A stretch of DNA of 30,564 nucleotides from a virus. Both the position numbers and the translations under genes were made by a program. Location of the stretch: positions 1 to 30,564 of IMG/VR virus record IMGVR_UViG_3300025645_000303; one strand, given 5' to 3'. The notes below the pieces were generated by a model that worked only from the letters and a program-made list of their open reading frames with translations, did not search any database and had not been told where the DNA came from. Positions 11,190-21,652 of this stretch are shown in pieces; within the stretch, counting starts at the first letter, position 1; the number at the start of each line of letters is the position of its first letter.

Positions 11190-11795
11190 TTATCGTAATG
11201 CGATATCTTGTGTTTTTGTAGCAATCTTGCGCAGCTTCTCTCTTGCGCTCTGATTTCTAGGCACATCGATAATTTCGTCCCAAACTTCTCCTGCAGAGGC
11301 TGTAGCCGATGCAGCCGCAATCGCAGCAATATCTTGTTCTGTGATGTTAACTCCAATTGCTTCAACTTGAATAAGATCAACAATATTAGAACGCACGAGT
11401 GATGTTGATACGCCTTCAGCAAATAAGAATGGTGTGTCGCCAACTTCACGTGTATAGATGTTACCCTCAACAGTTAGTGTATAAGACGTTTTACTTGATG
11501 AAGGTTGAATTCTCCATCCACTCTCAAGAAAGTATGTGGAGCCTAGACTCTGAGTATCTGTAATTGGATCACCACCAACAACACTAATTGCTTCTACATA
11601 TGCTGCAGGAAGTGGATTTTCAGGCGAGTTTATAACCCACTCTTTGTAAGCCGAATATATATCAGCTTTTACATCAAGTTGTGTGACGCCTTCATTTACG
11701 AAGATGGTTTTATTGGGCCCATCAAAAGTCACCTTCTGATTAGGATAATCTTCCCATTGCCACCATACTCCGTAATTGAAAGCTACCGTACTCAT
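11190..11795 (-). CDS. 201-aa virion structural protein
   Basis: The N-terminal 130 residues are beta-rich: VTFDGPNKTIFVNEGVTQLDVKADIYSAYKEWV, then GSTYFLESGWRIQPSSSKTSYTLTVEGNIYTREV. This combination (an 'IYSAYKEW' helix followed by 'GWRIxP...LxVxGN') recurs in structural proteins of many marine phages, often next to fibres. The C-terminal 50 residues change to an alanine-rich then charged helix (TEQDIAAIAAASATASAGEVWDEI...REKLRKIATKTQDIALR), which could trimerise or attach it to another component. Its ATG overlaps the stop of the 838-aa gene (TAATG), so the two are probably co-translated partners. Exact virion location unknown. Confidence 0.85.
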   Translation of the reverse strand: MSTVAFNYGVWWQWEDYPNQKVTFDGPNKTIFVNEGVTQLDVKADIYSAYKEWVINSPENPLPAAYVEAISVVGGDPITDTQSLGSTYFLESGWRIQPSSSKTSYTLTVEGNIYTREVGDTPFLFAEGVSTSLVRSNIVDLIQVEAIGVNITEQDIAAIAAASATASAGEVWDEIIDVPRNQSAREKLRKIATKTQDIALR

Positions 11796-20440: not shown

Positions 20441-21652
20441 TCAACTATCGTAAGTATATGTTTCTCTATCGTTCCAAATCTTGTCAAAGGCATCTGATCC
20501 AGCATCCCCGTCGCCAGCCCAAAGTATCTCAGTAGTACCATCTTCAAGTTCAGCAACACGCTTAATTCTCCAAACAGAATCAGACTTGATCGATCCTGGA
20601 GTTGCTTCACCGATATAAGTGTAGGAAACGTCTTCTACGACTGTTTCTGCTATTAGCTTATCATACTGCACTTCCAAGTCTGCCTTTAGTCTTTCTATGA
20701 TGTCAAGAAATGATTCTGACTTAAACTTATTTATATCATTATCAAAGATAAGAATGGCGTTACCTTCAACTTCATGTCTTCTTTGAAATACTACATCATC
20801 ATTATCAAGAATGCGAACTGAACCACCACCTGATGATCCAGCCATTGAAGTCATTTGTTGATTGATCATTCTCTTATAGTTTTCAAAGTCTTTTTTCAGT
20901 TTACCATAGTCTTTAACTAACTTATCATACTCTTCTACTTTTTTAGAGTCTACGTCTTTACCAGGTTCTCCAGTATCACCCTTTTCACCAGTCTCACCAT
21001 TTTCTCCGGTGTCACCTTTATCACCCTTGTCGCCACGTTCACCTTTAGGACCTTGTTCACCAGTCTCACCATTTTCTCCGGTGTCACCTTTATCGCCACG
21101 TTCACCTTGAGGACCTTGAGCGCCGGTGTCACCTTTATCGCCTTGAGGACCTTGAGCGCCATCTAGCCCTCTGTCACCTTTATCGCCTTGAGGACCAATG
21201 GGACCGATCTCGCCTTGAGCGCCGGTGTCACCTTTATCGCCGTGAGGACCTTGAGCGCCATCTAGCCCTCTGTCACCTTTATCGCCGTGAGGACCAATAG
21301 GACCGTCTACACCATCTTTTCCAGGATCACCTTTATCGCCTTTGAGTCCAGCAATTCCAGCTCTACCTCTTTCACCAGTGTCACCTTTGTCACCTTTATC
21401 GCCCTTGTCGCCTTTTTCACCACGAGGACCTGTTGGACCAGTTTCACCTTGAGGACCTATAGAGCCTGGATAACCCATTTCTCCGATGTCACCCTTTTGA
21501 CCCAGATCACCTTTATCGCCCTTGCCGCCTTTTTCACCACGAGGACCTTGTTCAACGTTTTCTTTTAGGTGTTTTGTAAGTTTCTTACTGAATGTTTTTT
21601 CAAATAGGCTAAGTGCAGCCTTTAGAATCTTTGCCTTGTCAACTTCATTCAT
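20441..21652 (-). CDS. collagen-like fibre protein with C-terminal globular domain
   Basis: A 403-aa protein in three parts: a short helical N-terminus (residues 1-35), 66 uninterrupted Gly-X-Y triplets (residues 36-233, rich in GDK, GDT, GDR, GAQ, GPQ), and a C-terminal part with a coiled coil ([23 protein letters not shown]) followed by a beta-rich end [17 protein letters not shown]...[10 protein letters not shown], a domain often closing phage collagen-like and fibre proteins. The triplets should form a trimeric collagen helix, probably a fibre on the virion. The start at 21652 has GAGG upstream; an ATG six bases earlier lies too close to that site. It overlaps the portal stop by eight bases and a late promoter lies at 21690-21683. 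Confidence 0.92.
20728..20735 (-). promoter_or_regulatory. late promoter motif inside the collagen-like gene
   Basis: TATAAATA on the minus strand, within codons for D-I-N-K of the C-terminal domain, about 290 bases before the cysteine-cluster gene. It may drive that gene and the 995-aa gene independently of the fibre, or may be a chance match in coding sequence. Confidence 0.5.
21114..21305 (-). repeat. 99-base tandem duplication in the collagen region
   Basis: Positions 21114-21206 and 21213-21305 align at a 99-base offset with only three differences over 93 bases. The unit encodes 33 residues (11 triplets), so register is preserved. A second near-identical stretch (coding [11 protein letters not shown]) occurs near 20987-21022 and 21058-21093. 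Confidence 0.9.

Follow-up and report, generated by a model that had tools for sequence, protein, structure and literature searches.

The window analyzed here, a 30,564-nucleotide stretch of viral DNA (IMG/VR record IMGVR_UViG_3300025645_000303), carries on its minus strand the late region of a T4-like phage, in which neck, terminase, sheath, tube, and portal genes are followed by a block of seven genes, a gp67-like open reading frame (ORF), gp21 to gp23, and further T4-type genes. The block (P7 to P1; Table 1) lies between the portal gene gp20 and the gp67-like gene, and all seven ORFs named in a preliminary description of this DNA are present, on the minus strand and in the order given there. 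That description saw in the block the best candidate for an undescribed system, a view that is not supported as it stands: three of its genes are relatives of gp53, gp54 (through the C-terminal domain), and gp55 of the podovirus Syn5, the first two of which are reportedly horn proteins, and a fourth contains a phrog_1645 region. The sequences point to a version of an appendage that is known but little understood. We consider it fairly probable that these genes form a Syn5-horn-type cassette for a head appendage, located in a T4-like phage between the genes for portal and prohead core. The backbone relative phiM12, whose portal is 59% identical to the window gp20, has no block, and its gp20-gp21 interval holds just a 56-amino acid (aa) and a 135-aa gene.

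Table 1. The block, its flanking genes, and late-promoter boxes in the window
Feature	Position	Strand	Basis
gp20 portal (context, left anchor of the block)	21645..23360	-	phrog_213, E 2e-201
Late-promoter box TATAAATA near the gp20 end, upstream of P7	21683..21690	-	exact match
P7, collagen-like fiber with a ~130-aa non-collagen C-terminal domain	20441..21658	-	PF01391, E 2e-33
P6, small cysteine-cluster (CxxCxxCC) protein, optional member	19965..20444	-	PF03692, 23.6 bits (cut-off 23)
P5, 995-aa protein, gp54-type	16985..19972	-	C-terminal domain common to P4 and Syn5 gp54
Late-promoter box TATAAATA upstream of P4	16970..16977	-	exact match
P4, 784-aa protein, Syn5 gp53 relative, gp53 core with inserted regions	14560..16914	-	profile, 442 bits
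Late-promoter box TATAAATA upstream of P3	14552..14559	-	exact match
P3, small ORF, probably 56 aa from ATG 14494	14324..14548	-	similar ORFs between P4 and P2 in several other contigs
P2, 838-aa protein, phrog_1645 region at residues 145-425	11795..14311	-	phrog_1645, E 2e-40
P1, 201-aa protein, gp55-type	11190..11795	-	profile, 62 bits to Syn5 gp55
gp67-like acidic 90-aa ORF (context)	10874..11146	-	position and acidic repeat; family match at chance level, E 0.046

The kinship with Syn5 emerges from both pairwise and profile searches. Against 50,697 phage records, searched by tblastn at E 0.001, P4 finds 6 matches (five phages), P5 finds 3, and P1 finds 2; with Syn5 proteins as queries, gp53 returns 6 matches and gp55 returns 3 (Syn5 twice and S-TIP28). 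P4 meets Syn5 gp53 at E 6e-23, and a P4 profile made, like those of P5 and P1, from contigs without Syn5 matches gp53 over its full length, which places P4 in the gp53 family. The gp53 core is distributed over residues 1-14, 106-258, 326-384, 547-617, and 631-782 of the window P4, with inserts between these blocks. The P1 profile recognizes not only gp55 but also S-TIP28_58 (67 bits) and Rctr197k_180 (103 bits). P1, which lies in one gene run with P4, is a gp55-family member. For P5, residues 883-994 match Syn5 gp54 (tblastn E 2e-5), the profile covers gp54 residues 518-621 at 40 bits, and a profile of the C-terminal part alone scores 37 bits on gp54 versus 15 bits on gp53; the neighborhood of P5 agrees with a gp54-type assignment. 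The C-terminal domains of P4 and P5 are themselves related (hhalign 97.4%), and 34 of 36 inspected C-termini carry the motif (E/D)R-x-(Y/F) close to their end (counted by eye). By these comparisons P4, the C-terminal domain of P5, and P1 are homologous to Syn5 gp53, gp54, and gp55, respectively.

The three gene types also lie next to one another in phage records. Genes 53, 54, and 55 are consecutive in Syn5, as are their counterparts in S-TIP28, and Maribacter phage Panino has gp53-, gp54-, gp54-, and gp55-types in one row. Syn5 shares with the window all three gene types, a full-length gp53 match, and the (E/D)R-x-(Y/F) ending, but it is a T7-like podovirus with the order 53-54-55, it has no collagen, cysteine-cluster, or 838-aa genes between them, and its gp53 has 446 aa as opposed to 784 aa, with inserts, in P4. 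Virus Rctr197k is close in content, with a P2-type gene, one other gene (177), and then P4-, P5-, and P1-types in a single run (genes 176-180); it differs in having no T4-type portal match and another gene order, and its genes are annotated as hypothetical proteins. Elsewhere the libraries are nearly silent. Among 48 P4 members, no PHROG is matched by more than nine (phrog_9998, of unknown function); 1 of 29 P1 members has a weak match; and 1 of 12 P5 members matches head-closure families, with none matching a Pfam family. P1, P2, P4, P5, and P6 have no match in NCBIfam, and the P4, P1, P5, and P2 profiles matched no solved-structure sequence save for one irrelevant hit at E 0.2. A megablast of the region against the phage records gave no match.

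The block genes also occur together. We selected 201 loci (labeled Lnnn) by matches to P1, P2, P4, P5, or the portal; some of the counts below still include near-duplicate loci. The best 80 of 310 confirmed P4 relatives were kept. In 79 of them the P4 ORF reached 200 aa or more, and 39 of these loci (36 distinct P4 sequences) offered room, defined as at least 3.5 kb upstream and at least 6.5 kb downstream. Within the fetched sequence, P5- and P1-types lay on the same strand in all 39, P2 in 12, and T4-like head genes in 5. Each P1 match in the P4 loci reached E 1.3e-13 or better and started within 6.6 kb after P4, and several of the P5 calls depend solely on the C-terminal domain, with E 1.7e-4 for the weakest. 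From the P1 scan, which took the best 80 of 320 loci and hence close kin of the window P1, 24 loci (17 distinct P1 sequences) had at least 8 kb upstream, and every one of them carried P4, P5, P2, and T4-like head genes. In the control set of 80 portal-scan loci, P4, P1, or P2 was found once, in L136, itself a block-bearing locus without a recognized P5; a collagen domain also appears in L184, a contig that ends 913 bases past the portal. The P5 place in L136 is occupied by a 563-aa ORF (8296-9987) unseen by the P5 profiles.

Gene order is similarly constrained. Among T4-like loci, 32 differ in their P1 sequence; the order is P4-P5-P2-P1 in 13 of these and P5-P4-P2-P1 in 10, and the remaining nine have duplications or an unrecognized P2 or P5. 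Where a distinct T4-like block locus includes gp20, P7 is the next recognized gene in 21 of 22. Overlap of P2 with P1 is seen in 26 of 28, and gp21 follows P1 in 29 of 30 (the exception is L067). The usual order reads gp20, collagen gene, gp53- and gp54-types in either order, 838-type, gp55-type, gp21. Co-occurrence and order support the earlier suggestion of a virion module: the genes stay together in the gp20-gp21 interval and probably encode an apparatus on the head surface. Comparison of the 20-67 interval across T4-like contigs, which the same description had proposed, finds composition and order kept but alleles of the middle genes reassorted. In L066 and L067 the block is placed after gp23 rather than between gp20 and gp21.

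The position beside the portal raises the question of whether the proteins might instead form a neck or collar appendage, attached at the portal vertex in the manner of the T4 whiskers rather than on the head surface or at the opposite vertex. We think this rather unlikely. With the first possible starts taken, the P7 ORF does overlap gp20 in 19 of the 21 loci that have it next to the portal gene, and a head-tail adaptor gene precedes the set in L106. Nevertheless, prohead-core and capsid genes lie downstream of the block, the set comes after gp23 in L066 and L067, and the Syn5 horn stands at the vertex opposite the tail of a virion that also bears knobs (PMC10575957).

The history of the block was traced on a FastTree tree of portal sequences with 65 rows, 15 bearing the block, 49 lacking it, and 1 unassigned; identical rows, near-copies of the window, and 30 rows whose state was unclear are excluded. 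Block presence requires at least seven changes, whether gains or losses, compared with an average of 13.5 in shuffles, none of 500 being as low. The nearest portal to that of the window, in L118 (73%), comes without a block. None of the 48 portal-scan loci that show both gp20 and gp21 (80 fetched) has the block; because the fetched flanks stop at 10 kb, gp21 tends to fall outside the sequence of a locus that bears the block, and this count therefore speaks for those 48 only. Pairwise distances of P7, P1, and gp21 follow those of gp20 (rho 0.57, 0.51, and 0.52, with 1, 7, and 9 of 1000 permutations as high), whereas P5, P4, and P2 do not (rho 0.05-0.10); the correlations cover 21 pairs with 7-12 loci each and are uncorrected. 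Individual alleles behave likewise. With L002 standing for the window, L003 has a P2 that is 77% identical and a P5 that is 34% identical, L011 has a P5 at 70% and a P2 at 32%, and L011 and L016 share P4 at 97% with portals at 53%, a mixture which argues that the architecture is kept while the middle genes are swapped. The description of the module as co-evolved is apt for its composition and order and less so for its alleles: distances of the collagen and 201-aa genes track the portal, and those of the 995-, 784-, and 838-aa genes do not. The repeated presence changes and the reassortment would also suit unrelated structural genes that accumulated by chance where insertions are frequent, an explanation we regard as very improbable: it is largely refuted by the joint presence of the genes in all 39 P4 loci and all 24 P1 loci and by the near-constant order in 32 distinct T4-like loci.

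T4-like genomes aside, Syn5-type podoviruses and one siphovirus-like contig carry the set. Among 30 chosen records, many of them fragments, seven have a T4-type portal (one weak), one (Syn5) a T7-type portal, and four a sheath match over the cut-off. L106 encodes a terminase, portal, major head protein, head-tail adaptor, gp52-like ORF, P4, P5, P1, and tape measure, has no sheath match, and reads as siphovirus-like. In L085 an internal virion protein precedes the set and an integrase follows it, and P4 relatives are also present in metagenome-assembled genome contigs labeled Ekhidna, Acidimicrobiia, Saccharibacteria, and Desulfocapsa. Syn5 gp52 (L035 11645-11989) has gp52-like sequence as its counterpart directly before P4 in L106 and, weakly, within the L003 collagen protein, and may be part of the module. 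L032 (1186-1467) and L033 (1145-1426) each contain a 93-aa ORF whose match to P1 (88% identity) is restricted to the C-terminal 33 residues of the latter, with no other window gene recognized in either.

The remaining block members differ in how widely they are found. Profile positions ~134-387 of P2 match S-RIM32 gp136 at 167 bits and HMO-2011 gp65 at 162 bits, and P2 matches 142 of the 50,697 phage records (E 0.001), mostly Synechococcus phages. In those cyanomyovirus and HMO-2011 relatives, however, the phrog_1645 protein has 463 or 419 aa, it lies between gp16 and gp17 in S-RIM32, and these phages give no tblastn match to P4, P5, or P1. L008 (10001-13285) carries two P2 relatives in tandem ahead of P1. 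P3 would have 74 aa from GTG 14548 and 56 aa, the homolog length, from ATG 14494; similar ORFs of 56-57 aa, 68-77% identical, occupy the same place in L018, L024, L026, and L028 and at the end of L017. P6 is recognized in part of the block loci only, and a cysteine-cluster protein of this kind might be a modification enzyme of the fibers. P7 probably starts at ATG 21652, which aligns with most homologs, and its C-terminal domain is conserved across eight aligned members. That domain alone has no match in the phage records, and in NCBIfam P7 meets collagen-stretch models only, all below the cut-off.

An AlphaFold2 model of P4 (predicted local distance difference test score [pLDDT] 81.4, predicted template modeling score 0.77) consists of beta domains in series. 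Residues 380-454 are similar to the endosialidase barrel (3gvj, Z 9.2, 2.1 Å, 73 residues) and fall mostly in an insert absent from gp53; the Pfam endosialidase-barrel model scores 17 bits there, below its cut-off of 35. Residues 661-776 weakly resemble a fimbrial Ig-type domain (3qdh, Z 6.3, 3.0 Å, 95 residues). Foldseek found no PDB entry at E ≤0.001 for the P4 model, the best being a phage endosialidase at 3e-3; 42 BFVD entries at E ≤0.001 had TM-scores of ~0.1 and were not used. The P1 model (pLDDT 69.7, with a better core) had no convincing fold match in the PDB.

Beta domains and an endosialidase-like barrel would befit displaced tail fibers or spikes, that is, tail receptor-binding proteins encoded in the head region. 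The same could be said of the matches of P7 to PHROGs tail-fiber families, which probably arise through its collagen repeats, of the weak matches of 3 of the 48 P4 members to a major-tail family, and of the allele swapping of P5, P4, and P2, a pattern typical of adhesins. Against this origin, 4 of the 48 match a head-protein family, the block lies among head genes in T4-like contigs, and the best-known relatives are structural proteins of Syn5, a phage with a separate annotated tail-fiber gene (46). We judge a tail-fiber identity improbable. In the libraries, themselves incomplete, P7 alone matched tail-fiber PHROGs, and no member of P4, P5, or P1 matched a named fiber family.

A third placement, as knobs or head fibers that decorate the whole icosahedral shell instead of forming one unique appendage, bears on gp55. 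According to PMC9207676, the assignment of gp55 and gp58 to the Syn5 knob was tentative, with gp55 given to the hexon-centered knob density; no gp55 model fits the unmodeled density, and both densities could be filled by gp58. The authors describe this assignment as unproven, and the gp58 models are of low confidence. That assignment and the filing of phrog_1645, a virion structural protein family, under head and packaging would accord with decoration, which we nonetheless consider unlikely: the failure of gp55 models to fit the density speaks against it (PMC9207676), with the low confidence of the gp58 models as a limit, as does the presence of gp55-types with gp53- and gp54-types in 39 of 39 loci. 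gp58 shows no such association. Among the ORFs of the 201 loci, a phmmer search found gp58 in Syn5 alone, compared with 85 gp55 and 112 gp53 matches (copies included). In the 50,697 phage records gp58 matches only Syn5 and, partially, cyanophage SS120-1 (46% covered), which has no gp53 or gp55 match, while S-TIP28 has gp55 at 95.5% and no gp58 match. Because gp55-types accompany gp53-types wherever there is room and gp58 does not, we infer that gp55 and P1 belong to the horn. This co-travel with horn genes questions the tentative assignment of gp55 to the capsid knob.

For the block itself, a head appendage with exchangeable, glycan-binding outer parts is the likeliest role. P4 and P5 would form a slender shaft, anchored through their related C-terminal domains with the (E/D)R-x-(Y/F) ending, and P1, perhaps together with the collagen protein P7, would join the shaft to the capsid. 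P2 and the inserted P4 beta domains, one of them endosialidase-barrel-like, would be exposed and could bind glycans on cells or particles. Such binding might let virions linger near hosts, and specific, irreversible adsorption would still fall to the tail fibers. More tentatively, we propose that one head appendage, the horn, is a self-contained cassette that has moved between podovirus, siphovirus, and myovirus heads, with conserved anchors (gp55/P1, plus P7 in T4-like phages) and a freely exchanged shaft and tip; gp55 would then be a vertex adaptor and not a hexon knob.

Several observations weigh against the horn-type assignment or parts of it. For the window phage, the appendage is a prediction from its genes, and adjacency to the portal, together with the adaptor next to the set in L106, would also fit a neck appendage. 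Identification of gp53 and gp54 as the Syn5 horn proteins is reported from a 2014 study by Raytcheva; antibodies to these proteins reportedly left infection unblocked, an argument against an adhesive role that is essential. We found no text that ties gp53 or gp54 to the horn or describes the block, in a search that covered few subscription papers. The likeness of P5 to gp54 is confined to ~100 C-terminal residues in a domain common to gp53, with the rest of gp54 unaligned, and the full P5 profile scores 40 bits on gp53, 48 on its S-TIP28 counterpart, and 40 on gp54. P5 is unrecognized in 2 of the 32 distinct T4-like loci, one of them L136, and gp58 has no relative in the block. The P4 barrel resembles E1-enzyme barrels nearly equally (Z 9.0), so that the likeness reflects a common fold. 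Finally, P1 does not correlate with gp21 (rho 0.05) but does with P2 (0.34, 9 of 1000) and P5 (0.48, 48 of 1000), and the split between anchors and exchanged parts is therefore not clean.

Head appendages are known from other systems. The flagellotropic phages 7-7-1 and phiCbK catch host structures with head fibers, and the 7-7-1 head-fiber proteins are stated to be unknown (PMC12796354). The feature in common with our block would be an appendage on the head. The main texts of the Peru-2 and 7-7-1 papers, checked for head appendages, do not mention Syn5.

The late promoters proposed at 21683, 16970, and 14552 all prove to be exact TATAAATA boxes, and a further box lies at 11180. The window has 12 copies (11 on the minus strand) compared with 1.9 ± 1.4 expected, about six times the expected frequency, and none of 100 shuffles matched this count. 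The boxes suggest that the block is expressed late, alongside other head genes. An exact box that the preliminary description did not list, at 20728-20735, is inside the collagen gene P7. The tight start/stop overlaps reported there follow from the gene coordinates except at the 995/784 junction, which has a 70-bp gap. The full block recurs in a near-identical contig (L002, L010, and L023 are one contig) and partially in L009, L020, and L031, so an artifact of assembly is unlikely. Searches of the window for Rfam families and tRNAs found none. The 90-aa ORF is a candidate gp67 by its position and acidic make-up. Between it and gp21, which is followed by gp22 and gp23, sits a 327-aa ORF (9888-10871). 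Its similarity to the 135-aa gene ahead of gp21 in phiM12 is limited to the N-terminal ~66 residues, and its long extra C-terminal part has weak matches, one to a head-protein family. Elsewhere in block-bearing T4-like contigs, two tail-tube (gp19) relatives stand in tandem (L011 5574-6092 and 6103-6630; also L012, L013, and L015). The tail-sheath proteins of L014 (3539-6085) and L043 (from 2202) have ~850 aa versus 590 in the window.

The Syn5 horn has been an odd structure without a known function, and an almost invariant gene set in many uncultured phages, at a nearly constant position among T4-like head genes, makes it a general and testable part of virions. Its presence in phages of different types suggests that what was deemed a curiosity may be a widely traded part. 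The block offers a lead for proteins that are mostly blank in PHROGs, Pfam, and NCBIfam, and it gives an independent reason to revisit which Syn5 protein forms the capsid knob. It also predicts which T4-like phages should bear a head appendage.
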